The notes under the pieces were generated by a model. The model saw only the letters and a program-made list of their open reading frames with translations, was not told where the DNA came from and searched no databases. This document shows positions 4,751 through 24,583 of a DNA stretch of 24,583 nucleotides, one piece after another. Location of the stretch: assembly GCF_000003605.2 (NCBI RefSeq), contig NW_003134838.1, positions 374,630 to 399,212 on the forward strand, written 5' to 3'. A program made the translations under genes and the position numbers. This stretch comes from Saccoglossus kowalevskii. Lineage: Eukaryota; Hemichordata; Enteropneusta; Harrimaniidae. The number at the start of each line of letters is the position of its first letter. Positions within the stretch are counted from its first letter, which is position 1.

Positions 4751-4852
4751 ACAACAACATCTACTGATATATACGGTGGCGGACATAATACGACTACAAT
4801 TTATAATTGATTGTTATAACGGTCGTCGGCTGCTTCCGCCTCCACTGCTTTC

Positions 4853-7800
4853 TCAAGTTTTAGTTACCACTGCAAAAATAAACACATACTTCATTAATTA
4901 GGGTATCTCAAAAGATGTTGTCAGTGAAAGACAACATAGTGAAACATGCTATAAATACGTGGTCAAAGTGTATCGACGTGAAATTTATATTTGTTACACA
5001 TTTAAACATCTATATATGTAAATAAATTGTTAAAAAATAAAAAGAATATAGTAAATATTACCTGAAAAAGGTGATGAGTTGTGGTTCAGGTATTTTAGTC
5101 ATTTTGAGGGGCGGATGCATTAAATCCGAACATGAATTAGTTTAGTCGAACTCAAAAAGTGCATATCAATGCATGGCACATAAACATCTATAATGACTGT
5201 GATATAGCCGAATTGTTTTCGAAGCTTAAAATCAAACACACACATACTCTAGTGACCAGTGCTGTCTGAACAGGTATACTTCAGCAGTCGAATATATTAA
5301 TACTATATAAGAAGATCAACCATTAAATTCTTATTTTTTCATTGTTCGATCAAATAACCGATTCACAACTGTTCATTTTTAAGTACTAGAATTGCCAGAT
5401 AAGGAGTGTTGTAAACCTGACCAACTTTTATTGTTATTTTCAAATATACAATTAATATAATTTATAGTAGCATTAAATCTATTATACAACAACCAAAGAA
5501 ATTAAATACGGCATTCAGTCATGGGAGTACAGTAAATAACTTACAAACAATAATGAGAACAATAGCAGCAATAATCACTAAGATAACCACAATGACAATT
5601 AGTAAACATCTCATCTGCCAATAACAAAAATAAAAAAGTTAGTTATTTAAAAAAATAGTGATTAAATATGAAACAAATCTGTTCAAATAAATAACTGTAT
5701 TATCAACACATTTTAGATTAAATACAAAAATAGTTACATTAGTGTGTATAGTTGAGGATGTTTAATCACTTGAGTGAAAAGTAAATGTGATTAGTTCAAT
5801 GGATCAACTATGTTGCAAAAATAATTGTTATCGTTACGGAGATAAACATTGGTCACATACGCTTCACATCAAACGAGCTGTTAGTCGAAGCCTCTATCAA
5901 GCCAGAGCTTTATTTTCCACGACACTCCTCATACAACTGTTACATTAAATTTCAAAAACTGGGCGCACAATCTGCTCATGAAATTTCATTGTTCAATAAC
6001 GCAAAAGTATTTTACTTTGACAACCACATTCAATCATACAACTCCGACGTCAATTGTTTGTGAAACGGGAACTCGTCAATAATTGCGGGTCTAAAATACA
6101 TATATAGTAATGACACACCTCAAAATATGTTTACATCACAATACCCCAAATTAGGCCATTAGAAGAGTAAATAACTACAGGAAGAGTCTTTCTTCAAATA
6201 CCAACATCAAATATGAAGCATAATGAACGTACAGTGTTTGCCTAAACACATACTCAACTGCCATATTCCATCCGTTAAATATTGCTCATCGGTTAATACT
6301 GTTTTAACTTATAGTTAGTTCCAAGGTGGGGTACATAATCAATGATAGGATAATGAAACAAATCATCATATTATTATATTGATATCAAAAATACCTTCAT
6401 ATTTTTTAAACTATATTTCTTCTTTGAATTCTTTGAAGGTTTAGCGAAATGTTGTTTGGCTATTTCTCCTAGATCATCTGGAGGAAGGAAAAACATGTTA
6501 AATATATCTAAAAATATCAAGTACATTTAGGTAACATGAAAGCAATTTGTTTTAAGGCGACCAGTAGGTCAAGATAAAGTACGCAATTCACAGGACAACG
6601 CAAAGTTGTGTACACAAAGTTCCCGTCCAGTGAAGGCGCAATTCTTCGTCAATTCGCCTTTTGCGCACAAGGTAGAAATATGTTGTGTATCTTTGGTCGC
6701 AAAATGTGAACCACTTTGAACGTCCTGGTTGTCCATTTGTGAGATACGATTGTTTACATACCATTAAATACCATTAAATTGCATGTGTTAATAAGATTAT
6801 CGTTTGATTTATTATTAAAGATCATGCCTAAAACACTAACATACATTATTATAGTAGTAGTATTATTGTATTCCCGAGTTATTGATTTTATAAATGAATG
6901 AACACCCAGTGTTTTTCACCAATATTTCATTCTAAAGTACAATATTGTTTTGTGTGAGTGTAAAGGTCAAAGTTTCCAAGGGACAACTGACTGTATGGAC
7001 GGGCGACTAGTTGTTTGATAACCAACTATAAATCTTTTTGGGCAACATTGTCTGACCCTTTTTGACGAAACTATTCATATCAAACTGCCTTACCAGTACA
7101 TAAATAAATATGAACTATTATATCATATAATAATATAACTTCATTGTGACACTGTTGAATCATCGTAGCAACTGTGAAATTCATGTTCATAAATACATCT
7201 GCAACAATTGTTTTCCCACCTGCTCTTTCAGCCAATACTCTAAGTTTTTCTTCACTTTCACACATTTTGTCTATTTTATCGTGCAGTAAGTCGGCAACTC
7301 CATGTACATTGTGATGACTCTGCTGTTGAACTGAAGGCGTTGCCCTTTAATACACAAATCATATATTCAATTTGAAACTGGCATTAATTTTGCACAATTA
7401 TATTTATCATTCTTTTACTAGTATTTCTGTTTAGTCAAATGCACATAATTTGATCAACATGAATGTAATAAATGGTTTAATGTTTGTACATATATAATGT
7501 TAATTATTTAACACATTTAAAACAAATGACAATTTAAATATGCTATGCTGGTACATTTGAGTATAGAGCAGGTTTCTTTTTGTTTGTACAATGTCTCCGA
7601 TCATATTCGTATTGAAAATGACCTCTTTCGCCAATACTTTACTAAGTTACAGCTCTTCACAAATATTCGAAATGAAACTATTTGTATTGAATTATTTTTT
7701 TCTTTGCCCATATTTGTATTGACAATACAATACTATCGCACATATTCGTGTTGAAAATAGTGTTCTTTGCTCATAATTTAATAAAAAATAGTCTTCTACG

Positions 7801-8255
7801 CCTATATTGATCATTCAAAAATAGAATTTATACGCCAATATACCTTTAAATCATTTTACATTTTATAGTCAAGCACCATATTTAAGAACACGCTCCTTGG
7901 CATTCCTTTGTTTTAGTAGCACTTTGATAAGCACTGTACGTGATGTCTATTTCGGCGACACCAATTTTGGGTTTCACTACAATGTTTCAAAACTGATAAA
8001 ATAACGCCACGTTTATAAATTTGGTAGTAACTGTAACTAGATAAACCAACTCAGAGGTATGCGTACGTTGGTGACAATATTTTTGTTCGAAGACTACTGT
8101 AAAAGAATGTAACAAGTGACCCATATTGCATATTTAGGATAGATATGTACAATGTAAACACCAACATGATTATTCCGTCGATGCACATTTTCAGATCTAT
8201 TTTGGTGAGAAGCAGTGGGACAATTGAAAATAAATATAAATCATTTTACTTACAT
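4853..8255 (-). CDS. VAMP/synaptobrevin-like SNARE, copy A (5 exons)
   Basis: Read on the minus strand as exons 8255-8254 (AT of the start codon, then gtaagt), 7344-7220, 6477-6395, 5614-5545 and 4869-4853. Every junction is in phase and the product is about 98 residues (VAMP8 is about 100, VAMP2 about 116). The start is MATPSVQQQ; then comes a SNARE coiled coil with HGVADLLHDKIDKM, EEKLRVLAERADDL and IAKQHF, a basic juxtamembrane stretch KKKYSLKNMKM (compare RKYWWKNLKM of VAMP2), and one 20-residue hydrophobic segment IVIVVILVIIAAIVLIIV. The family are tail-anchored membrane-fusion proteins of vesicles. Layer positions are hydrophobic as expected, but the zero-layer arginine is serine (CESEEKL against LERDQKL). 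The tail ends LVTKT at TGA where copy B has TGG. Exon 2 could instead start at 7330 or 7322; 7344 is preferred because only it completes ATG. SNARE assignment is firm, the exact start less so. Confidence 0.8.
7590..7850. repeat. Degenerate ~31-bp minisatellite in intron 1 of copy A
   Basis: About seven imperfect units of the form atattcgtattgaaaatag plus ttctttgcc. The repeated pieces are catattcgtattgaaaatg, catatttgtattgacaat, catattcgtgttgaaaatag and tacgcc/ttgccc spacers. Confidence 0.7.
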
Positions 8256-9059
8256 GAGTTGCAGTGGTCAGCAAAGCTATTCATGCGTTACAAATGTGTG
8301 TTTTTTTCTTCCACTTCCACCTCCGGCACGTTTATCTCCAAAATCAACAACAGTAATATAATATAATGATCAATGAGTACTAGTTTGACCCCTTTACTTC
8401 TTGTCGCAAAATTGACGTAAATATTTTGTACATGCGCAGAATAAGCATTTTTTAGTGTCAGGCCCGAGTTTTTCGTCAGAACGCTAAGCCGGATGAAAGT
8501 GGTTGTCAGCGTTTGAAGTAGATTTGAATTTTTATACAACAATTGTCATCTCTCGGCTTTGTGGATTCGCACCTACATTCTTTATATATTGTTTAACTCT
8601 TATAATGTCTATGGGTGTCCTTCTAGTGCAACCAGATGACAATGGACTTCATTGATTCCGCAAGGTGATGACCGAAGGCCGAATTCCAGAAAAATGTTGT
8701 CCATTTTTACATTTACATAGTGAAATCATTAAAATCGCTGACGAGGTATTGTTTATATATATCAATCTCTGAACAAAGTTTTTTGTTCTATTATCGTGAA
8801 GCAACCCATGTAAGGGACAGGACGGAACAGGGTTGATCGTTAATTGAAGAAGTACTATACAAAATGCAAATGTGTAAAGTAAAAAAATATTTCGGTATTT
8901 GCAGCCGTTTCTTGGTGGGTGTCCTACTTACCAACTGCAACTCTATGGCAGTGATACAATATCTGGTTTTGATGCTCTTTCTCTTACGTCAGAGATATAC
9001 TTTCTGTGAAGTAATGATACCTGACGTATTGGTAATATGTGTGGGCTACATAAAATGTT
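8256..9059. other. 5' flank of copy A up to the transposon
   Basis: Up to about 8480 this matches unit B upstream DNA. Beyond that there is no counterpart, so part of it may belong to the left end of the Tc1-like insertion. No gene seen. Confidence 0.4.
8355..8368 (-). promoter_or_regulatory. TATA-like tract upstream of copy A
   Basis: aatataatataatg lies about 100 bp upstream of the copy A start codon on the minus strand and is kept almost exactly in unit B. Position and conservation suggest a core promoter element; no start site can be read from sequence. Confidence 0.3.
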
Positions 9060-10113
9060 CAGAATATATCAGTATGTCTCACTGGCTTGAGAGATACCCA
9101 CATGACCACACCATGGGCAAAGTCCCAAGTCTGAGTCCCAGCTCTGTGCCCAAGACTTTGCCCTTCGTAGTATGGGCAAAACTTGTGAGCATGTTGCCAC
9201 ATCCTTGGGGATTACTGTACGATGGGTTTTGATGTGGACCTAGCATCACAAGCAAGGTGCAGGTCTTGTGCTCACTGCCAGAGCCAGGAAGGCCAAGGGC
9301 AGAAGGTGACAGTCATGCTGGCGGTTGAGTCGCAGACTAAAAAACATTGACGAGAAAGGCTCTAAGAGCACTGTTCATCGGTATTTGACCCAGAAAATTG
9401 GTTGGAGGGCATACAAGAGGCCCAAAATACCACAACCGACAGAGATCCAGAAAGAAAAGAGGCTGTCTTTCGCCAGGAAGTATGCCAGCTTGACGACGCC
9501 AAACAGTCAAAATGACCGGTTATACAATCATAGTCCTGAAAAAGTGCCTCCTTCTGAGCAGGCCCATACCATGTGCTATCAGAGCTTCACATTGTGTCAC
9601 AGGGCACCACAGTAAACACTCGATACTATCTGATACGGGAACCGACACTGGGGCCCATCATGAGCAGAAAGAAGAGGAGTGTTCCTGTCACCGACAGGAT
9701 GATGTAAAAACGACGCTCGGACATGGTGTTCATGCATATGCAGGATGATGCACCTGCTCATACCGCCCGTGTTAGGCAGGAGTGGTGTTAAAAGAAACGC
9801 CCTGGCTTTCTCCGTAAAGCAGAATGGCCCCCAACTCTCCAGACTTGAATCCAATTGAGAACTGCTGGGGGATACTGAATCTTCAGCAGCCGACCCCCTG
9901 TGTCCATGAAGCAGCTAAATGCAAGGGCAGTTAAGGAATGGGAGAACAATGAGCCCTTGGTTCTCAAAGACTTGGTGCACTATATGCCTGGGCGGCTCAA
10001 ATGTGATATTAAGATCAGTGATACAGTGGATATTAAATAAGGGGATTTTATCAGCATGTGTTTGATTTGTTGATTGCTAATCAACTTTAACGAACTTTTG
10101 GGACACGGTGTAT
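9060..10113 (+). mobile_element. Tc1/mariner-type transposon remnant
   Basis: Plus-strand fragments of a transposase lie in shifting frames. They include a helix-turn-helix piece MGKTCEHVATSLGIT (about 9163), a second DNA-binding piece SKSTVHRYLTQKIGW (9364-9408), MQDDAPAHTARVRQEW (about 9738-9785) and SPDLNPIENCWGIL (about 9836-9878). The last two hold the second Asp and the Glu of the DDE triad. Stops and frameshifts separate the pieces, and the first catalytic Asp region looks deleted. The right end is probably the terminal repeat ttttgggacacggtg followed by TA near 10111. The left end was not found with confidence (a weak candidate is atgggtgtccttctag near 8611). Absent from unit B, so it came after the duplication. 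Confidence 0.8.
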
Positions 10114-10705
10114 GTCGGATTGAGACACACTGCCGATGACACTTTGTTGTTCTTCACTCTAATATCTCAATTCTCACTTTGGTATTTACGAACATGTAAC
10201 TTAAATGTAACTTATTTAGTTAGTGTTTTTGCTTGAACCAGTAGAATTCCGAATAAATATGTAAGAGTAACAAATATGATGCTACCACGAATAATCAAAG
10301 CACATTCAGGAATTTACTATGTAGGAACATGTCCATGAAGATATTTTAAAGTATAATCATCATGATTGAGCATTAGTCTAAACATTATTTATAGACAAAG
10401 TAAAAATAAATAATGTTGACCTCTGACCCGGACAGCCATTTTTATCAAAGCATTTTGTTTGTTATGGTCAAAGTGGTTACAAACATTTGATGTGTTTTCT
10501 TTTGTAGTGAAATGCTGGTAAATCTTATTTACAGTGATGAATATGTATTGTTTCAATATAAGTTTATGAATTAATAACAAAGCTTTGTTAATCTGATAAG
10601 TGTTGGTGTTGCAAAATCCACTATACCATTTTCAGCAGGGGTTAGCGTTATTAACTCCTAATATGTGCTAACTAGAATTCACCGAGTCCTTCCAGAGATA
10701 ATTTG

Positions 10706-10923
10706 NNNNNNNNNNNNNNNNNNNNNNNNNNNNNNNNNNNNNNNNNNNNNNNNNNNNNNNNNNNNNNNNNNNNNNNNNNNNNNNNNNNNNNNNNNNNNNN
10801 NNNNNNNNNNNNNNNNNNNNNNNNNNNNNNNNNNNNNNNNNNNNNNNNNNNNNNNNNNNNNNNNNNNNNNNNNNNNNNNNNNNNNNNNNNNNNNNNNNNN
10901 NNNNNNNNNNNNNNNNNNNNNNN
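10706..10923. other. Assembly gap (218 N)
   Basis: Run of N in unit A. The flanks do not join cleanly when compared with unit B (about 18620-18650), so the true gap may hold an insertion. ORFs across it are artefacts. Confidence 1.
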
Positions 10924-11119
10924 CTAGTTTAATCAGTTGACTTATTCGAAGATTGGGTGTTTTTTTGACAAGACGGAGAAAAACAACTTAATATACCGCA
11001 ATAATTTATTAAATTATCGGTAATCGTGTCCATGTTGTACCATTGGGTTTTTTGCGACCCCAGAAATTTTGTATGGAATTCACCGGCGATCCCGTACGGC
11101 TTTCCATAAGGAGTTATCA

Positions 11120-11466
11120 TTCGTCTGGGAAATTATTAGTTTATGGCGTGAAATACTGCCTCGTACAGCAATTCATCATAGACAAGCCACACAGAGTATT
11201 GTTGTTAGACTGAAAGTACAGCATAACAATAAATAGTAATCATGGTTTTACAACTATAAGGGTGAACCATGTTTACAACCACAATGGTTCACTAGACCTA
11301 TTTAATCGATATTGAGGCCATTCAAACAAACGAGTTTATGATGCCATAAATATGGTCAAATGACTACATCGCACGTAGAAGACAGAACACTACAACATAT
11401 TTACAAAAAAATATTTGCAATGCTTTTAAATTTGGCTGATCGTGAATTGAACGTAAGTATATACAG

Positions 11467-11509
<43 letters not shown>

Positions 11510-12157
11510 TAATACACTAAGATATTGGAATAATGGTACATTTAGAAATAAGGTTTATCTCAGTATGACCTTTGGATATTAATAGTATTGTGAATAATTA
11601 TAAATTCCAAATATAATGCAGTCATGTCACAGACATGGTTATGTTTAAAGAAGATCTCGTGTGATAGTTTACGATCGTAAATATATTTACAAGTACGCGA
11701 GTGACGTCACAACCTTGAAATCAATTCTCATCAGATTGTGTTGAAATGACATTTAGCCAGTGATAACCCTTAGTGCAGGCATGGTAACTAGCGGCCTAAT
11801 ACCAAACAACAGTGAACATCATGTATGTCATTATTTGAAATCCGGATGTGTGGAATTGTCACATGAGAAATCGTAAAGTGATACTTCAATAATATTTTCA
11901 TTCATCGTTGAGTGTGAAAACTTAACAAGACATCATGTGGCAATGATTATGTAAACGGAAATGTTAAACGACTGGATTAATGTTTGGGACAAAATCATTA
12001 CACTGTGATTAACTCATGTGTCTTCATGTTAATGACAAGTATTCTATAAAACGCTTTGCTTGTCGCAAAATAAACAAATCGTGTTTGGACGAGTTTGGGC
12101 TTCACCGGGAGCCTCAACTACAAGTAAATTAGAATAAATAAAAGAAGTTAAATATAT

Positions 12158-12160
<3 letters not shown>
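11120..12160. other. Non-coding unit A DNA
   Basis: Matches unit B at 11160-11350 and 11640-12120. I see no exon conserved between the copies, so I read it as intergenic DNA between the VAMP-like gene and the unit edge. Confidence 0.5.
11469..11500. repeat. (AT)16 microsatellite
   Basis: Perfect AT dinucleotide run in unit A, absent from unit B. Confidence 0.98.
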
Positions 12161-12241
<81 letters not shown>

Positions 12242-12244
12242 TTT
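12161..12244. repeat. (ATTT)21 microsatellite
   Basis: Perfect 84-nt tetranucleotide run in unit A, absent at the matching place in unit B (about 21160). Its purity points to recent growth. Confidence 0.98.
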
Positions 12245-12776
12245 TAAAGTGAGCACAAAAAAGTTGTTAGTGTGTGTCTTGCAAAAGAGAAGAATTTGTA
12301 AAATATTATTTTTAACAAAACAGAGATTGAAGACGCAAGTGGAAGTCTGGTATAATGAATATTAAAATAGAAATATACAAGGATGCTCATTTTGTTCTAT
12401 GAAGGACGATTTTATCATTTTGTATATGATATATAACGCTATAGCTTATATAATGCTGGAAATCAATTGCTTATTGACATTAGCACCGAATTCACACATT
12501 GGCCAATGTTTCTATTCCCCCCTTTCCACATGTCATGTATGTATCACAAAATGTAAATATTATGTATAATACGAAGAATTTGTGTCTGGCTGGTTGGGTC
12601 TTTTATTTATCCAATTAGATCATTTTTAAAATGGTTTAGACTGTGATAGTATATGACAAAAATTGTTACAGGTGAATAAGGGGTCAATATTTATGGCCGT
12701 CACAGTTTGCCGTATGAGGTTGTAAGGCCAGACATGTTTTATTCCTTGTTTCTCGAGTTTTTATGAACTTTTTTGA

Positions 12777-13110
12777 GGAGGGCGGAAAAACATAAAATTA
12801 ATTCTTTTTTTCCATTAGATTTGTGTGATTCTCAAATTGTAAGTGAGATCATTGATCGAAGAGAAGAGATGAAATAAAATTTTATTCCATGTGTAACCTT
12901 GTGACTTCGGTACTTTGATCATGATACTCCCAGGAAAATGCAACTTGGATTTGTTATGCGGCGGGCGGTAAAAAATGGAGATAAAAATAATATTTTTTTA
13001 GCATTTTTTTGCGCTTACAAGTCGGCGGGCGCGAGAAATTATGTTGAAATAAAATTTTATTTTTATTTCATTTTTGGCTATTGTTCATTCGGCGGGTTCG
13101 CGAAACAAGG
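12777..13110. repeat. Dispersed GC-rich module in unit A
   Basis: Four cores, ggagggcggaaaaa (12778), gcggcgggcggtaaaaa (12959), gtcggcgggcgcgagaaa (13021) and ttcggcgggttcgcgaaa (13089), lie in AT-rich spacers that themselves repeat (gaaataaaattttatt at 12871 and 13045). It is absent from unit B, so probably an inserted repeat element. The 101-codon ORF over it is not supported as a gene. Confidence 0.5.
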
Positions 13111-14290
13111 GATAATAAAAGTCTGGCCTAATTATGTAATGATTCCCAAGGAACTTGTAAAGCAATTTATTCGACACAGTATTCTTGCAGTCAATATGAA
13201 TGTGATAATGTCTATTACTACTAAACAGTATATCATTCTATGAAAGTCCATTGCTATTTCCTGAATCCTAAATATACGAGTTAGCATAACATAGTGAATG
13301 CCAATTTAAAGAAATGACGCAAACATAGTCATCACAGTTATATTACAGTACAGTTTAAAACTGACTGTAAATGTTTCATGTTAAGTTGGTCACACATCTT
13401 TATCCGCCATATGTAAATATCGACAATCTTTATATCTATACAGCACTATGACACCTGCATCTTGATGCATATTATCCTAAACGTAAAACTAAGGAATGAA
13501 TTACAACATATATACCAAAATATTAACATACATTTTCAATGGTATTCTGTTGTCGGTCGCACAAATAACAATGCAAAGTATTGTTCCTTTCTTTTTTGGC
13601 TAGATTGATAATCATTCTCGCACTTGGTCTAATTTTGTACTATTTTGATTTAATAAATGTAATCATGAAGTTGCTGTATTACCAAAAACAACCATCAAAC
13701 GCCGTTCATGTTTTCGTGTATAATTTAATAATACACGATTGTACATTGACTAATTTTTAGTTTAAGGGTACAAATATTTTACATGTTCAAGCTATTAGTT
13801 TTTATGATCCCACGTCAATAAACCAAAAGTTGACCCTGCCTGTCTATTGTCGTCACCCCTTTCCCATACCTTGTATGTACATTGATCCCGATTTTCCCGG
13901 CATGAATTTCTAAGGGGTATTTTTCGTGAAACCAAAATTGGTAAGGAGTGCCAGGCTAATCAAACAAAACGAAATAAATACATAAACTGTCACAAAAATG
14001 CCTCGCGTCTTATATACAACGTCGTGGGGGTACTGAATTTGAGACAGTTTCCGATTGGTTGAAATTTAAAAGTATAGACGCCACGTGATACAGTGGTGTT
14101 TCCTAACACGGCCTGAAAATAATTTGTTACATTGATTCCGATTCACACCAGAGATACGTCTGTTTATAGCAATGTTTGGGAGATAATCCAGTATTTTTAT
14201 ACTCTTGTATGATTGATTAAGTAATTTAGTAAAAAAGGTATATGCAGATGGTGGTGGACTTGTGTCGCATGATATGACCATCATTCTTAA

Positions 14291-17200
14291 TTAATAGTTG
14301 TAATGATCGAGAGTTGGGTCGCTTCCGCCTCCACTGTTCTCCCAAGGTTTAGTTATTACCACTGCAAAAATAAACATATACTTCATTAATTAAAGATGAT
14401 GCAGTCAGACAAAACTGATGAACATTGTGAGAAATGCTATAAATATGTAGGTCAAAGTGTATCCATGTTAAATCTGTATTTGTTATATATTTAAACATCA
14501 ATATCTGTAAATAAATTGTCAAAATCTCAAAAAAATATAATAAATATTACTTGACAAACCTGATAAATTGTAGTTCAGGTATTTTTGTCATTTAGAGGGG
14601 TGGATGCATTAATTCGGAACACGAGAGAGTTTAGTTAAACTCAAATAGAGAATATCAGTGCATGGGACATGCATATTTATGTGACATGAGCATGAAAACT
14701 ATTCGGTTTTTTAGCTTAAATTCAAACACATACACATACACAAGGTATGCTTGACCTTGGCAGGGGAATATATTATTTTATGGAATAAGATCAACCACTA
14801 AATTAACACTGTTCGTTTAACAACTAATTCACAACTGTTTATTTTTAAGTACTGGAATTGCCAGTAATGAAGTGTTGTAATTCTGGCCCAGTTCAGCAAT
14901 ATGTATATGTTGTGTTTTAAATACAAAATTAATACATTTATAGCTGGATTAAATTTATTTTATAACGATCAAAGGAATGAATGAAGTAATTAAGAATAAA
15001 CATTCAGTCATTAGAAACTATTATTTAAAATGTAACGAGTACAAAAATAACTTACAAACAATAATGAGAACAATAGCAGCAATAATCACCATGACAACAA
15101 CGACCACAAAGACAATTGGTGAACATATCGTCTTCTTATAAAAGGAATGAACAAAATAATTAATTGAAAACGAACCTTCATTCATTAAATATGAAACAAA
15201 AATGTTCAAATAAATAGTTTAGAAAAGAGCATAAACAAAACATTAGTATGTATAGTTGAGGATGCTATAACCACTTGAATAAAATTTAAATTTAATTAGT
15301 CCCATGGATCAACAATATTGAAAAGATGATTGTTATCGTTACTTCCTCTCAAAAAAACACACTGAATAGAATTGTTTGTCGAAGCTCCATAAAGCTAGTG
15401 TCGCTATATTTTCAACGATACTCAATCACAAACAAATATTTCACGTCAACTGTTTGTCAAACATGAACTAATCAATAAAACATATGTAGTAATGGCATTA
15501 GGCCATTGGGGTCGCTACAATAAAATCTTTCTTCAAATTCCAATGTCAAATATAAAGCCTATTGAACGGTGAAAGCGTAAACACATACCCATCTGTTATA
15601 TTCTAGCTGTTATGTTATATATGACTCATCGTTGGATAACATTTAACGTATAACATGTTCAAAAATGTGGAAAATAATCAACGATAATGTAATCAAACAA
15701 ATCATCATATTATTACTATATTGTGAACAAAATTACCTCCCGATTAGTTGAAGATTCTGGGACAGGAGGATCATCTGGAGGAACAAAAAATACTTTTAAA
15801 TCACAAGTACACTCAAGTCGAGTAAGATTCACAAGGTAACGGAAAGTGTGTAGGTGGCAATAATGTGTACATATAGCGACTGTCCAGGCAAGGCGCAAAT
15901 CTTCGTTAATCCCAAAACACCAATTTGCACAATAGCAGACTGCTGTGAATCTTTGGTCGCAAAATATGAAGCGCGTTAAAAACCCTGGTTTAATTAATAT
16001 ATTTGGAAATTTACACCATAAACTCTTTATTTACCTTCCTGATTAATTGAATATTCTGGGAAACTTTGTGTGTCATTCTAGTCAGATCATCTGGAGGAAC
16101 GAAAAATACTTTTAAATGACAAGTACACTTAAGTTAAATAAGATTCACGAGGTAACGCAAATTGTGTATGTGGCAATAATGTGTACATATAGCGACTGTA
16201 CAGACAAGGCGCAAATCTTCGTTAATCACAAAACACCAATTTGCACATTCGCAGACTGCTGTGAATGTTTGGTCGAAAAATGTGAAGCGCATTGAAAACC
16301 TTGGTTTAATTAATATACATTCGAAAGTTTCGATTTTTTTCATAAAATACCATGTTAATATGATGATCGTTTAATCTATTTTTACAAGTTTACATGATGC
16401 ATAGCGATCCATTGTACACAAAAGGAAGATGACTGTAATGACGGGCGACTAGTTGTATGAAACCCACTATGATGTTTGGCAACATTGCTTGACCCTTCTT
16501 GGAGATACGATTATATCATTCCAAGATTTAACATTTTCCAAAGTGTTGCGTCATGAATCGCTTCATGTAAAACGGTTTTAGATAAATTTGAACCACGATA
16601 TCATATAATAATAGAACTTCTTTATGAAACTGATAAACCATATTAGCAATTGTGAAATACTGACTGTTTTCGAAAAAAATATTCATGAACACATGTATGC
16701 ATTGAATAATATAAATCATTTATTTCCTACCTGCTCTGTCAACATAAACTCTCAATTTATCTTCTTCTTTTTCAATAAAAGTTTTTTTAATAAAAGTCAC
16801 ATCGTCTTGCAATTTACTATAAACTCTCCGTCTATCTTGTTCAAGCAATCTTCTCTGTTCATCTTGCGAATCAGACATCTGTTGATACAATTAATACAAA
16901 TGCCAATTTAAATATGCTCTACTGCCATACACCAAAGTTTGAATAATGTCGCCGACCATATTCGTAATAAAAGTACGTCGTTTTGCCAATATTCTTATTG
17001 AAACCATTGTATTTGTATATACCCTTCTTTGTCGATATTTGTATGGGTATACTATCTTACGTTTTTATTTGCATTGAGAATACTCCCCTTCACACACATC
17101 CATATTGAAAATAATGTCTTTTGCCCATAATTATATCGAAAATACTTTCCTACCCTTTTATTAATAAATCAATTTTACATCTTCTTATTGGTCATTCACA

Positions 17201-17549
17201 AATAAAATGTATATATTTTATAGTCATCCCTTTTATAGGCATCTCATATAAGAACACGCTCATTCGCATTTCATAGATTTAGCAGTAATTTAATTAACAC
17301 AGCTGTACGTGACGCCTATTTCAGCGACAACTTAAGAAGTATGTGAACATTTGAGACAATATTTTCATCGTTTGAAGTACTACTGTAACGAATGTAATAG
17401 GTGAGCTATTATATATATTTATGAAGAACGGCGCAATTTGAACACTACTGTGATTATCGAGTGCACGAACATTTTCAGATCTATTTTAGGTGAGAAGGAA
17501 TAGCAAATAGTTGTTTTGACCAAAATAAACTAAATCATTTTACCAACAT
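14291..17549 (-). CDS. VAMP/synaptobrevin-like SNARE, copy B (5 exons)
   Basis: Minus-strand exons: 17549-17544 (ATG TTG, then gtaaaa), 16878-16731, 16090-16035 (exon 3a), 15131-15056 and 14361-14291, all in phase, giving about 118 residues. Exon 2 begins with a second in-frame ATG right after its acceptor, so the true start could be either. The N-terminus is very charged (MSDSQDEQRRLLEQDRRR). The coiled coil then runs KLQDDVTFIKK, EKEEDKLRVYVDRADDL and TRMTHKVSQNIQLIRK. A hydrophobic segment IVFVVVVVMVIIAAIVLIIV follows, then a 22-residue tail VITKPWENSGGGSDPTLDHY-NY ending at TAA. By alignment with copy A and VAMP2 the zero layer is glutamate (KEEDKL). The juxtamembrane basic WWKN-type block of copy A is missing because exon 3a is shorter (18 against 27 codons). 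This is a diverged paralogue, probably a tail-anchored protein of the secretory or endosomal system. No clear AATAAA was seen just downstream. Confidence 0.75.
15728..16330. repeat. Local tandem duplication carrying exon 3 of copy B
   Basis: Two about 300-bp copies, 15728-16013 and 16028-16330. They share the exon, its acceptor and upstream intron such as gtggcaataatgtgtacata and gcgcaaatcttcgttaatc. The pair is much more alike than units A and B are, so it arose later. Copy A has one matching region (6395-6720). Confidence 0.85.
15737..15774 (-). pseudogene. Second version of exon 3 (exon 3b) in copy B
   Basis: This 38-nt segment has a good acceptor (ttgttcctccag) and donor (gtaatt). It has the same phases (1 in, 0 out) as exon 3a at 16090-16035 and would encode DPPVPESSTNRE in place of the coiled-coil end. 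Aligned with 3a, it has lost a net 18 nt by several indels. Its homologous bases (TCCCAGAATCTTCAACTAATC) are therefore read in a different frame while the exit phase is kept. It cannot be spliced after 3a without a frameshift, so it is either a mutually exclusive alternative exon or a dead duplicate. I lean towards dead, because the coiled-coil pattern is lost. Confidence 0.45.
16945..17165. repeat. Degenerate ~31-bp minisatellite in intron 1 of copy B
   Basis: Same motif as in copy A (ccatattcgtaataaaag, caatattcttattgaaac, tccatattgaaaataatg, cataattatatcgaaaat, with ttttgccc spacers) in the same intron. The array therefore existed before the unit was duplicated. Confidence 0.65.
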
Positions 17550-17620
17550 GAGTTGAAGTTGAAGTGATGACTTCTATCTTCAAGTCAATCGCTGGCACAC
17601 ATTTACCTCCAAAATCAGGA

Positions 17621-17634
17621 ATATAATATAATGG
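17621..17634 (-). promoter_or_regulatory. TATA-like tract upstream of copy B
   Basis: Counterpart of the copy A tract (atataatataatgg), about 75 bp upstream of the ATG. Between tract and ATG both copies also keep cctcc(a)aaaatca and aactcatg. Confidence 0.3.
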
Positions 17635-17689
17635 TAGATACGAAATTTCTTTTAAAATTGTTTTTGTGCCAGGCGACAGTTCTGGACAT

Positions 17690-18020
17690 TGAGTGTCACT
17701 GTTGTTTTTCCTGACTTTTTTGTAAGTGCAAGTGCTGACACAGAGTGAATTTGGCCACAGAAGTCATATTCGCGTATGGGACTACATGACAGAGCTGTGT
17801 GGCCATCTCTCTAACAAATGGCAATTTTAATGGGCTATCCTGGCGTCAACCAGACTCGGTCACATTCGTTAGTGAATGAAACTCGGCCAGTGGAATTGGC
17901 CTTCCCATTGAGTCTGTGGCATACTCATCCAGGGTAGGGGGTCGACTTTGATATTCAGCCTAAGGTAGGATTTGAACTTGGGTCTACCGACCATGAGTCG
18001 GATGCGACATCCACGAAATT
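17690..18020 (-). mobile_element. tRNA-derived SINE candidate
   Basis: On the minus strand the segment begins with tRNA-like sequence: CATCCGACTCATGGTCGG resembles an anticodon arm with CAT, followed by AGTTCAAATCC, a good B box. The A-box side looks shortened. A GC-richer body of about 250 bp follows, unlike the AT-rich surroundings. The matching place in unit A (about 8480) lacks it. Family not identified. Confidence 0.5.
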
Positions 18021-18079
18021 GTTTGTCTCCTGTACTATTTCATCAAGCTTTCCAGGATTGGATGTTCGATTTTATTTTC

Positions 18080-19399
18080 AGTTAGTGAAATCTCAGGAAT
18101 GTGTAAATTCAACAATGAAGATATACACTAATTTACATATATTACGATAAACAATTAAACTGTTACATTACTTTTTTAAATGGTTATAACATTTTCTGTC
18201 AGCGATATTTGACGTTAAGTTAAATGTAAATGACTGTTTACTGCCTGAGCAAATAATTGAAAAACAGAGTAAGTAACAATAACAAACTACCATAAATACT
18301 CAAAGCATAGTCAGACATTACTATTTAGGATCATGTCACTAACACTGATAAAATGATTTTTAACCACTATTCTGAACGATATCCATATTCAAAGTTATTA
18401 ATTGGGAATCAATAATTAAAAATAAATTTTGTTTTGATAAAATAGAGAATGACTACACATTTCACCCAGAATCTCTTGAGACATTTTTCTTAAGGCATGT
18501 CCTATGTGATGGTTAAATCTATTTTTAAATATTTGATTTTTGTTTTGTTCTGAAATGCTGGTAAATCTCATTTATAACGAGGAATATGTATCGATTCAAT
18601 ATGAGTTGACATTTTCGCTCAACTTCTTCTTATTTGAATTATTTAACTTATTCGAAGTTGGGTGTGCATCACTTATTGCCTGTTATTGTTTAATTAAGAG
18701 TCTGCTATTGGCGGGTGTTTTATTTAGTATAATAGGGCGTTTTTATTGACAAGTCAGGTAAAACAACTCAATGTACCGTAAATTTCCAATGTATTTAAAC
18801 GTTACAGAAGTACCGGTAATTGAGTCCGAGTTATCGGGTTTTCTGCGAATTTTGTATGGGATCTACGTTAAAATGTCGGGGGTCTTTTAAGGTGTTCCTT
18901 AGTGTTTTCTTTCTCGACTTCAGTTTGAAGCATCGTTTTTGGAAAATTATAACAACACGAAGCCAGTAAAGGGTGAGGTTTTCATGGGGAAGGAAATTAG
19001 TCAGAAGGTCAATGTCGAGATGCTGATTCTAAAATTTCTAATTTCATTTTCTAAATCAAACATGTCACCAGGTTAAAGTATGGCTATGGTATATATATTT
19101 TTTTGTTCATATGACAATAAAGTGTACGGGCGGGTAACAGCTATTAGGAATGTAGACACTTCCGACCGATTTTATGCCGTAAGATACTGTCTACTAGCTA
19201 GGATATATAATAATCAAACCAACCTGGAGAGTAATGTTGATGGTATTATTTTACGAGTAAACTCAAAAGTACGGCATAACAATGAATGGTAACCATGGTT
19301 TGAGTGTAGAGAGTACAGGTGTACCTAGGTTATTTACAAAACACATTTAATCAATATCGAGGTCATTCAAATAAATCGATTTTATGATGCCATACAGAT
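18080..19399. other. Non-coding unit B DNA
   Basis: Matches unit A 10140-11350 in pieces. ORFs of 69-70 codons here (18540-18749, 19080-19292) are not kept in unit A and have no known motif. Confidence 0.5.
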
Positions 19400-20545
19400 G
19401 GTGTAAGTGTTATATTTAGTTGTTTCTTATACAGACGAATAATGCTTATTTCAGTGAGCTTGGGGAACTGTGAACTTTATTTATTTACTTACGTACATGC
19501 GTAAAGTCTACTTGGCAAATTTGGAAAGTTAAATTGGCAGAGTATTGAAGGTGAAATTCCATAATATAATACAAATCACAGATAGAAAATAAGATGTTCA
19601 CAAGAGTAGAGTGTTTATAGTAGAGACATTATAATAATTCTTTTGCATGCCATTTTTATTTTGTATGTGTAACAATATTTTGTTATTATGAATAAATTAA
19701 TGCTGGCATTTTTTAGCATAACCACAGCCGCTATGAATATGCAAACCAAGTTATTTGTATTCTTCTCAACAAAGAAACCGAAACTCTTGTTGTTGTAGTT
19801 ACGTGCAGTTTGGTACCTAAAATGGCGTCACTTTGACCCACGAATTCCGGAAAAATAACAGATTTAGTTTTGACGGCACAGAGAATCTATCGCAGCGTAA
19901 AAATATGTTCGCGTGAATGACACATTCGATTGCAAATATAGTGGATTCAGTGATCAAAAACGAAAATTATCTGATTTATAAAACACGACACTTTATTGCA
20001 ACATCGACTATTTTAAGGCTGCTCGGCAAAGTAACAACCAAGATCATAGAGTTTTCAAAACGTTCGTCCGCAATTAATAAGCCATAAACCCTCCCACTCG
20101 AGGCCAATACACTTCAACCCACCAAAACAATGCTAGTTGAAGATTCCTCCTGGCATATCAAGCGTGAAATAGGGACCGCAAACTATCGAAATGATTTTAG
20201 CGGTGAACTATTTGACATCACGGAAGTCGTTAAAATCGAGGTAAAATTTTCAAAAGTGAAAATCTACGAAATATTCGAAATGGTAGAATTGAAAATAACT
20301 CACCTGTAACTAATGGTATTTCACTTCAAAAACAACACAAAGTTGTAAAATACACTCAATATTACAGATAAAACCGAGAATAAAAAAACGCAACAATTGA
20401 TCATACGTTGTCCTAAGTGGAAAGCGACGCTGTGATTTCAACCTAACATACTAGTACACGCATTCACAGGATGTTTATTGCTAATCCCCACTAAAACAAA
20501 AGGCGTTTCGCGACCGGTGATAGAGGGACTGTGGTATAGCAGTCA
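19400..20545. other. Unit B block with no unit A counterpart
   Basis: This segment of about 1.1 kb replaces only about 270 bp in unit A, which are mostly the (AT)n tract. A minus-strand donor at 20304 (ttacag|gtgagt) is excellent and could end a non-coding first exon, but no coding frame accompanies it. A transposon insertion is the simplest reading; no terminal repeats recognised. Confidence 0.4.
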
Positions 20546-20652
20546 TGTCACATACATATACATATAGACAAAGAGCCATTGCTCGAAACGTCTAGCTATT
20601 TTTAATAGTTATTACTACGATTACCAAAATTATCTTCTATATGTGACAGACA
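20546..20652. mobile_element. Short insertion with inverted ends (MITE-like)
   Basis: Unit A has gtcatgtcacagacatgg. In unit B about 100 bp sit inside this site, bounded by tgtcacat...atatag and its complement ctatatgtgaca. The small size and inverted ends suggest a non-autonomous element. Confidence 0.45.
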
Positions 20653-21379
20653 TGTTTGTGTTTAAGCAAAATGTCGTGTGAGAGTTTGTTTTGATAATCA
20701 TAGATATGTTTATAAACACGCGAGTGACGTCAATATCTTGATATTGATTGTCACCAAAATGTGTTGATATGACATTTAGCAAATGGTAAACCAGCTAGGT
20801 AAAGTCATTATAACTAGCGGTCTAATACCAAACAACAGTGAGCATCATCATTTGAAATTCGACTGTATGGAATTGCCACATGGGAAATCGCAAAGTTATA
20901 ACGTTATACCTCAATCACATTTTAATTCAACATTGAGTGTGACAACTTAAAATGACATCATGTAACAATGGGTATGTAAACGGAAATATTAAACGACTGG
21001 TTTAATGATTTGAACAAAATTATTACAATGTGACTGGCTCATGTAACTTCATATTAATGACCACAACTATCCCAAAAAGTTTGTTTGTCGCGAAATGAAA
21101 AAAATGTTATCGGACGAGTTTGGGCTGCAGTAGGAACTCTTCCTACAAGTAAATTCATTAAAATCATCAGTTAAAATGCGTCATTGGAGTAAATGCGCAT
21201 CTATTCCAGAGAAAAAAAAGCAATCCTGATGAGGGGGATAAATTGACAAGAATTTGAATATATATTACATGCGTCTTTCTTTAAGGTTAATGGTCATGTT
21301 TTGATCAAGTACATACATTCCTGCTTGGTAAATATTACAAGTTTGGCTTATAAAAGTTCACATAATTATGGAAATGAGG

Positions 21380-22032: not shown

Positions 22033-24278
22033 TCACTCCTGAAAAAAATGGTATCTAAATCAATAACACGTTACTTACCTCTGTATGTCTGGGTATTGGT
22101 GGGCAAAAGAATGATGGAAAACAATTGTACTTGGTGTACAGTGGAGATAGAAGACGCGGGTCTACGTCTTTTGGCCGAGTATATCCTGCAATGTATTCAA
22201 TACAAAATGCATTTGTCATGTACAGAATATAGGTATGTATTCCTAGTGATATAGTGACTTTATCATTAATTCCAAGCAACATGCAAAACATGTGTCGACT
22301 ATGAAATGTTTTGGAATATGACTGAATTATTACCGACTGTTCGAAATTAAAGGCACGATTTCCCTTGTGTTAAAATGTACACTAAGATTGATTTGGTAAG
22401 TAGTAAATAAATTGTGGTGTGTCAAGATTAAATTCGGAAATCGTTGTTATTATTAGTTTGAATAGTGTTGTGCACGTGCTATACATTCCCTCACAATGTA
22501 CCACAAAATACATTGTCAATCCAATATTATCACCTGTCAAAAGCTTACAAGAAGTCCAACAATCAGCACTGTTCATGTTTCCAACAATCCATACCACAGA
22601 TAGGATATTTTCATGAAATCTTTGAATCCATATGACCTGCGTAAATACAACACGACATTGAATATTCAATTCACCAGTAATTCGTTGTTGCCATTTGCTG
22701 TTTAATATATGATGCTTAAAAATTTACAGATTCTCCAACACTATTGTTTAGAATATGTTGGTATACCAGGATTCTTCAATAATAATAGTCATCACAACGT
22801 AACAATTAAACTTACTCAGTTTGTGGGATCGTTGCTAATGTACTAAAATTGACATAGATGGCGTCAGTCTCTACCAGTTCTGTTGTGTACGCCAGAGTTA
22901 CATTGCCACAGTGGCGTTGGACTCGATACAACCAGCAATAGACATCGGCAGAGGTGGGGGACGATATTTATAGAATAAGTTGCCAACGAAAATCATTGCA
23001 ATGACACCTAATCCTGACATTAATCCAATGAAAGCACCCTGGTGAAGGATAACAATTATATACTGATTTGAATTGTTCATGATAATTTAATTGTATAATA
23101 CAATTGTTTATTTGGTGAAAATTTGATTCGTATACGGAATTTAAAACATGCCTTAGAATTAGCACATGGGAAAAGAGTCCAAGCTTGAATACACCAAGAA
23201 CAGGCGCAAGTAATAATCCAGATAGACCGCCTGATAAGATTACTAATGTACCAAATTGTGAAACCAGAAGGACAAACACAATAGCCAAAACGCCGTATAC
23301 AGTAGCTGTAAGTGTAATTTATTATGTGCATGTAGTTAATATGTAGAGAATTAATAAACACAATAATATACAACAAAAAATGTTATTTGTAATATTGCAT
23401 TTTTTAAAATTATTACACTGAAGAACTGTTATTATCAGCACTGTTTGTTGATGAACGAAACATTTTCAGGTCTCAGCGTTCTCCAAGGAATTTGTCCAAT
23501 TGACCAAAAATCGAAGAAAGGAAATTACTGTAGAGAATCTGTATATTTCTAGAAGAGATATGCACATACCTAGAATCTTCAGAATAACTGTAGCTTTTCT
23601 ATCTGAAAGCGTTGTTACGTAAGATGACATTTTCAGTAAGTCTTCGAAAGTCACAGCTGCCAGCGAATTTAGCCCAGATGAGAGTGTGCTGTTCATTAAG
23701 ATATATGCAGAAAATTGTCACGTTTCAGTCTTATTTATTAGCAGATCCTTATATGCAGACTTCGCGCACGCAGTGATACATACTCGGTAGGACATGTTTA
23801 ATTTTTCACCCATTATAAACCGATATCGTGCTTATTGGTACTTGAACACAGTGGCGAGTGTTTTTCAGGTTAATACACACTTACTAACCTCAATGCCCAA
23901 CTCAATGCTGCCGCTATGAAGAGTCCAGCTAGTCCAGGAACATGTTGAAAGTGCTCAACCACAAAGTATGGCATCAACTGCAACAGAAGATTTAGTGTAG
24001 CATATAGTTTTAATTTAATATTTAAAACTTCGTATATATCTATCTGTCACTATAATGTGGAAGACGACGAAAACTGTTGCTGGTCATGTTAACAAAATTA
24101 CCTGCATTCCAAATACATAATATTAGAATGATTATTGATATACTGCTACCACGAACTCACCTGGTCAGGGCTTGATATGAATGGCGAACAAGTTGCATGC
24201 ACTGCATAAATGATTATAGCAGCGAATGCGAGAATAATAACAATAAGTTCCGAGAAGAATAGATGGAGAGGCATCGCT
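22033..24278 (-). pseudogene. SLC5 sodium/solute symporter, 3' half, broken frame
   Basis: Minus-strand exons: 24278-24161, 23977-23889, 23688-23570, 23305-23152, 23038-22902 (or to 22816), 22636-22534, 22185-22079 and a terminal GAG TGA at 22038-22033. Junction phases 0, 2, 1, 0, 2, 1, 0 all match once single-base losses are allowed for. The family are LeuT-fold Na+-coupled transporters. Recognisable pieces: a membrane segment SELIVIILAFAAIIIYAV, then SPDQ-LMPYFVVEHF; LSTLSSGLNSLAAVTFEDLL (the Ser-Thr pair matches the Na2 site of SLC5 proteins); LSDRKATVILKIL; GLLLAPVLGVFKLGLF with PCANSK in the next frame; GAFIGLMSGLGVIAMIFVG; KISYLWYGLLET, stop, TVLIVGLLVSF; YTRPKDVDPRLLSPLYTKY. The ANSKGA and DPRLLSPL blocks are typical of SLC5A8/A12-like carriers. 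Lesions: one T missing at 23171-23174, TGA at 22573-22575, and one T missing at 22539-22542. The 5' half lies beyond the window. It could be a decaying paralogue or a functional gene with assembly errors. Confidence 0.8.
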
Positions 24279-24583
24279 CTGGAGAAAAATACATTTTTTG
24301 TACACATATGCACAGCATTTGCTATGTTATTCCCCAGGCACCCAGTCATAAAAACTGGATGCAAATAAAGATGTGTTAATATAGTACAGAGATTGACAAA
24401 GTTTGAAACTATGTAAATCATTCTAAGCTCGTGTTTTGAAGCTATACATAAATAAAGTATACAGCTGCTGTTCAAACAGTATTGAAGACAAAATCATAAA
24501 TATAGTCTGAAAAGGCACGAGTGAAATATTGGTGATAAAAACATAAATAAGCTATAATACATAAATGATTGACTTTGAATGTG
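24279..24583 (-). other. Intron of the SLC5 gene, to the window edge
   Basis: Lies upstream of the exon with acceptor at 24280-24279 (tttttctccag). No frame here resembles the expected preceding SLC5 segment, so the next exon lies outside the window. Confidence 0.6.

Follow-up and report, generated by a model that had tools for sequence, protein, structure and literature searches.

Tandem brevin-type VAMP paralogues of Saccoglossus kowalevskii with serine or glutamate in place of the layer-0 arginine

The window analysed here, a stretch of 24,583 nt from the 572 Mb assembly of Saccoglossus kowalevskii (NW_003134838.1:374630-399212; internal label G000:C2657:374630-399212), contains two intron-bearing genes on the minus strand, denoted A and B, which are copies of a brevin-type VAMP gene. 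Each lies in one of the two units, about 7 kb long, of a tandem segmental duplication. The units match in blocks of 65-89% identity, at an offset of 8.0 to 9.5 kb, and the best block (E 2e-160) places the duplication, as judged by sequence comparison, beyond chance. The extent of the minus-strand exons given in an earlier note on this DNA holds, with the stop codon of A ending at 4853 and the first-exon region of B reaching about 17549. The main features, in window positions, are the following:

8284 to 4853, minus strand: gene A, the end of the stop codon being 4853
about 17549 or 16878 to 14291, minus strand: gene B
4784..12130, strand not applicable: duplication unit 1, gene A and upstream DNA, with blockwise, discontinuous similarity
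14268..21155, strand not applicable: duplication unit 2, gene B and upstream DNA
15769-16001 and 16085-16317 (span 15769..16317): secondary duplication within B, 233 nt, 91% identical, extending into exon 3

A broken transposase of the Tc1/mariner type is located on the plus strand at about 9310-9615 (within about 9060-10090), one frame of which matches HTH_Tnp_Tc3_2 with 37.9 bits. This remnant is placed between gene A and the upstream homology block of A, and has no counterpart block in unit 2.

Gene A was assembled from five exons:

8254..8284, minus strand: putative exon 1, beginning ATGAATAGC, donor CAT/GTAAGT; uncertain, the paralogue P (see below) being without this ATG
7220..7330, minus strand: exon 2, N-terminal and central coiled coil, with Ser at layer 0 (CESEEKL)
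6395..6477, minus strand: exon 3, layers +4 onwards and the juxtamembrane stretch KKKYSLKNMK, with a Pro in the last turns
5545..5614, minus strand: exon 4, transmembrane segment
4853..4869, minus strand: exon 5, tail (L)VTKT and stop

Spliced A passes the Pfam threshold for Synaptobrevin (PF00957; 58.2 bits, E 7.2e-16, cut-off 26.4 bits), its cytoplasmic part, without the membrane anchor, reaches 35.4 bits and is likewise over the cut-off, and the best match to a VAMP2 structure has an E value of 6.6e-10; by these scores, the kinship of A with the Synaptobrevin family exceeds chance. Gene A resembles the short VAMPs, or brevins (VAMP2, PF00957), in its SNARE-like coil, the RAD motif, the KKKYSLKNMK stretch ahead of a C-terminal anchor, and an exon boundary directly before that anchor, as in vertebrate VAMP genes. 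A single C-terminal anchor of the VAMP type with a short tail is predicted, by reading, in both A and B: the anchor exon 4 is followed by a tail of five residues in A and of 23 residues in B, the first codon of the tail being split by the intron in each case.

The structure of gene B is more complicated:

16731..16878, minus strand: exon 2, with an in-frame ATG at its start (16878) and Glu at layer 0 (KEEDKL)
16768-16797: 15-bp tandem duplication in exon 2
16035..16090, minus strand: exon 3 copy a, 56 nt, DLTRMTHKVSQNIQLIRK, fitting layers +4 to +8
15737..15774, minus strand: exon 3 copy b, 38 nt, DPPVPESSTNRE
15056..15134, minus strand: exon 4, transmembrane segment, AAGAAG acceptor
14291..14361, minus strand: exon 5, longer tail ending ..DPTLDHYNY and stop

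The 15-bp duplication adds five residues and pushes the first half of the B coil out of heptad register. Exon 3a is 27 nt shorter than exon 3 of A, at the donor side. Both copies of exon 3 are 2 mod 3 long, and joint use would break the frame, so that a transcript should contain only one of them. Spliced with exon 3a, B differs from the short VAMPs in staying under the Pfam cut-off (22.0 bits, E 1.5e-4, against 26.4 bits), with the unrelated PF25305 scoring 18.6 bits, just behind Synaptobrevin. Pfam searches with B spliced with exon 3b and with the cytoplasmic part of B alone gave no Synaptobrevin match, and the best VAMP2 chain has an E value of 0.25. As B is weak on its own in these SNARE tests, its link to VAMPs rests on the DNA common to A and B.

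Exons 2 to 4 of both genes are bounded by GT/AG sites, and introns 2-4 have phases 1, 0 and 1 in both, as calculated from exon lengths. Of the four introns with the same phases reported earlier, these three stand; the fourth shared phase does not, given the ambiguity of exon 1. A start at the ATG at 8284 would give phase 1 in A, whereas B would have either phase 0 or a start inside exon 2 (ATG 16878), and in the first-exon comparison with P, no ATG is present in P at the site used in A. Furthermore, the best alignment of exon 3 between A and B includes a 1-nt gap, so that part of this exon is read in different frames.

Alignments with VAMP2, on which the heptad layers were assigned, bear out Ser in A and Glu in B at the position of R56; accordingly, neither gene has the layer-0 Arg by which R-SNAREs are recognised, whereas P has it. 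Of the hydrophobic layers -7 to +8, A keeps mostly -5 to +5 in register (V, V, L, K, M, S, L, L, A, L, A) and then fits poorly, with layers +6 to +8 (F, S, S) aligned only through a one-residue gap and with a Pro nearby. B is in register from -1 to +8 (I, E, L, Y, A, L, T, V, I, I), and upstream of layer -1 its fit to VAMP2 is poor, becoming somewhat better when five residues are skipped. The statement that the layers align over the C-terminal half of the coil thus applies to B, but in A only as far as +5. The juxtamembrane Trp pair of VAMP2 (KRKYWWKNLK) is lost in exon 3 of A (KKKYSLKNMK, that is, YSLKNMK for YWWKNLK), and B is without the whole stretch. Taken together, A and B differ from the short VAMPs in layer 0, in the loss of the Trp pair, and in degraded layers +6 to +8 (A) or a degraded N-terminal half (B).

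The genome also contains paralogue P, a relative of A with the layer-0 Arg, on G000:C3219 (74783-74908 being the core of its exon 2). P, like the segmental duplication, the doubled exon 3 of B and the 15-bp duplication, comes in addition to what the earlier note described. It reads VLERGDKL at layer 0, and its exon 2 scores 41.1 bits against PF00957. Two regions of A have homologous DNA in P: exon 2 with its intron flanks (A 7135-7379; 70% identity, E 1e-30) and the first-exon region (A 8220-8412; 72%, E 6e-21). The comparison covers these two regions, since the sequence turns to N at about C3219:75520, where exons 3-5 of P fall, and stays so as far as 104791 at least. Because P has the Arg along with DNA common to A, the loss looks derived and most likely occurred within the A/B/P family, which supports the earlier proposal of a small family that has departed from the canonical zero layer.

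The genome-wide Pfam search for Synaptobrevin identified 13 places, with putative labels such as VAMP4, VAMP7, YKT6, Sec22 and tomosyn. Layer 0 is recognisable, by reading, in seven of these (C52, C3219, C3049, C2501, C4513, C2233 and C2924), and all seven, including P, have Arg; three of the seven exceed the Pfam threshold. C-terminal exons or ambiguous sequence make up the remaining six. Neither A nor B was among the 13 places, so that Arg-less relatives elsewhere may be missed by this search. The 30 kb adjoining the window on either side read N throughout, so the count of two tandem copies applies to the window. A whole-genome protein search with A returned six matches, namely two exons of the window, P (E 0.46) and three weak matches, which look unrelated on reading; the same search with B returned four exons of the window and two weak matches, P being absent. 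No canonical neuronal synaptobrevin exon was recognised by the Synaptobrevin family searches in the readable sequence of the genome; such a gene may be absent, missed, or located inside N stretches.

The rates of divergence around exon 2 suggest relaxed constraint on the coil. The exon 2 core of A and P (26 codons) contains 4 synonymous changes over 15.8 sites and 15 non-synonymous changes over 62.2 sites (pS 0.253, pN 0.241, pN/pS about 0.95), although the synonymous sites are so few that moderate constraint or positive selection could hide behind this ratio. For the last 16 codons of exon 2, pN and pS are 0.413 and 0.317 between A and B, and 0.500 and 0.500 between P and B. In a three-way alignment around exon 2, A and B differ at 47/109 exon positions (0.43) and 88/224 flank positions (0.39; p 0.55, or 0.63 and 0.22 under the two alternative ways of aligning), A and P at 28/109 (0.26) and 76/224 (0.34), and B and P at 59/109 and 111/224; none of the exon-flank contrasts is significant in any of the three modes. 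Changes unique to B amount to 36/109 in exon 2 and 53/224 in the flanks (p 0.086). In both exon and flank, the distance of A from P is smaller than that from B, which argues against a simple recent A-B split across the whole unit. These distances are compatible with one or two losses of the Arg and with more than one order of the duplications.

A different picture emerges when intron 4 and part of intron 3, the latter ending where the blastn alignment stopped, are used as the reference (200/820 positions different between A and B, 24.4%). Compared with these introns, exon 2 diverges faster (46/109 or 50/103, 42-49%; p 2e-4 or less), as does exon 3 (22/56, 39%; p 0.017), whereas exon 4 is slower (8/70; p 0.012). 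Accelerated evolution of the coil was considered on this basis and dropped, as the introns adjacent to exon 2 are equally divergent; in reading selection, we give more weight to these adjacent flanks than to the intron 4/intron 3 reference. That exon 4 is more alike than the introns would fit either gene conversion or a degree of constraint. As previously noticed, A and B have the same membrane core, IIAAIVLIIV; it lies within a 45-nt run of identical DNA, which covers synonymous sites and the donor and extends into the intron, while nearly all of the eight differences in exon 4 alter the protein (by reading). The contrast between a diverged coil and a conserved membrane exon is real, but as the identity extends to synonymous sites, gene conversion or constraint on the DNA itself fits as well as protein constraint.

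The earlier view that the copies are not obviously dead receives modest backing from a neutral simulation, with rates taken from introns 3 and 4 (820 columns with 15 gap events, of which 11 are not multiples of three). At half the A-B divergence per copy, the longest branch assumed, exons 2-4 stay open with a chance of 0.032 for A and 0.030 for B, or about 0.001 for both jointly; at a quarter of the divergence per copy, the chance rises to 0.16. The exon limits were picked by eye on open frames, which biases these figures toward openness, and the 1-nt gap in exon 3 speaks against strict constraint. On the sequence evidence, the open frames are modest evidence for coding, stronger for A than for B: A is probably coding, and for B this is doubtful.

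On balance, we lean towards the interpretation of A and B as relaxed VAMP duplicates, that is, tandem paralogues in which the Arg was lost under relaxed constraint together with other features of fusion-competent SNAREs. According to this scenario, a unit of about 7 kb carrying a brevin-type VAMP gene, which most likely had the layer-0 Arg as in P, was duplicated to produce the A/B pair, and Arg would have changed to Ser in A and to Glu in B as constraint relaxed. Lost alongside it would be the Trp pair in both copies, layers +6 to +8 in A and the heptad register of the first half of the coil in B. Relaxed constraint is suggested by the divergence of exon 2, which is no less than that of its flanking introns, by the A-P pN/pS and by the degradation of the other SNARE features; the faster divergence of exons 2 and 3 relative to the intron 4/intron 3 reference would instead fit positive selection, with which the exon 2 flanks disagree. 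Gene A most likely still encodes a tail-anchored membrane protein that, if made, would pair weakly and partially with Q-SNAREs through its N-terminal and central layers, with no tight zippering at the membrane, whereas B is probably further along toward loss or toward an unrelated membrane protein.

Several alternatives account for part of these observations. That A and B are unexpressed pseudogenes, with frames open by chance, is unlikely overall but deserves serious consideration: the coil evolves almost neutrally, the first exon is ambiguous and its start codon is not common to P, part of exon 3 is read in different frames, and B has a duplicated and shortened exon 3 as well as an out-of-register insertion. 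Against this stand the kept splice sites and phases of introns 2-4 and the low joint chance of two open copies, with the reservation on exon limits noted above. The inhibitory or non-fusogenic role proposed earlier found no positive support, relaxed constraint accounting for the same facts, and we consider it rather improbable that A, perhaps along with B, serves specifically as an inhibitory SNARE, taking the R position in a Q-SNARE bundle with neither an ionic centre nor tight membrane-proximal zippering and so competing with P or another VAMP. The pattern in A, with layers -5 to +5 largely intact except for the Ser at layer 0 and the Lys at -2 and with the layers nearest to the membrane lost, would be expected of a partial zipperer, and the frames of both genes are open; however, evolution of the coil near the local non-coding rate is unexpected if binding to Q-SNAREs must persist. 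The precedents, syntaxin 6/Tlg1, GS15/Sft1 and rBet1/Bet1, are Q-SNAREs and not Arg-less VAMPs. The concept itself is established, PMC3627133 naming these proteins as examples of inhibitory SNAREs (i-SNAREs) that act through their amount or location and form non-fusogenic complexes. By analogy, A could likewise form partial, non-fusogenic bundles. The competition for the R position would also liken A and B to R-SNAREs of the tomosyn/amisyn type; the exons on C2233 and C4513, presumably tomosyn/STXBP6-like, differ in keeping the Arg and in ending with a stop and no anchor in the frame read, A and B being tail-anchored. Still less probable is a lineage-specific brevin family that shed the layer-0 Arg through duplication and now serves as an internal decoy for P, the N-terminal and central zipper surviving in A and the C-terminal half in B.

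We assign the lowest probability, a very small one, to A being a v-SNARE that still drives fusion, with a polar residue tolerated instead of Arg. Ser is small and polar, and layer 0 is not absolute: yeast R-SNAREs with an R-to-Q change work with a Q-SNARE partner that carries R (PMC11091695). However, the regular layers +6 to +8 and the Trp pair are missing from A, and the Glu in B is a charge reversal.

No report of Arg-less animal VAMP duplicates was found in the literature searched, though such a report may exist. If A is expressed, the A-B-P set would document how a duplicated R-SNARE gives up the residue that is otherwise conserved most strongly, P serving as the Arg-bearing comparison from the same genome. 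Should the pair be decaying, A and B would be an ordinary instance of duplicates under relaxed constraint and would caution against reading a new function from changes at layer 0 alone.

Outside the two genes, exons on the minus strand at 22898-24493 may belong to a sodium-coupled transporter of the SLC5 type; a Pfam search with three frames of these putative exons (E 0.01) gave no match, and one frame weakly resembles sodium-coupled monocarboxylate transporter 1 (E 0.0058). The segment 17750-17999 is likely a dispersed repeat: contig C2924 has a stretch 71% identical to it (E 1.7e-40) close to its VAMP7-like gene.
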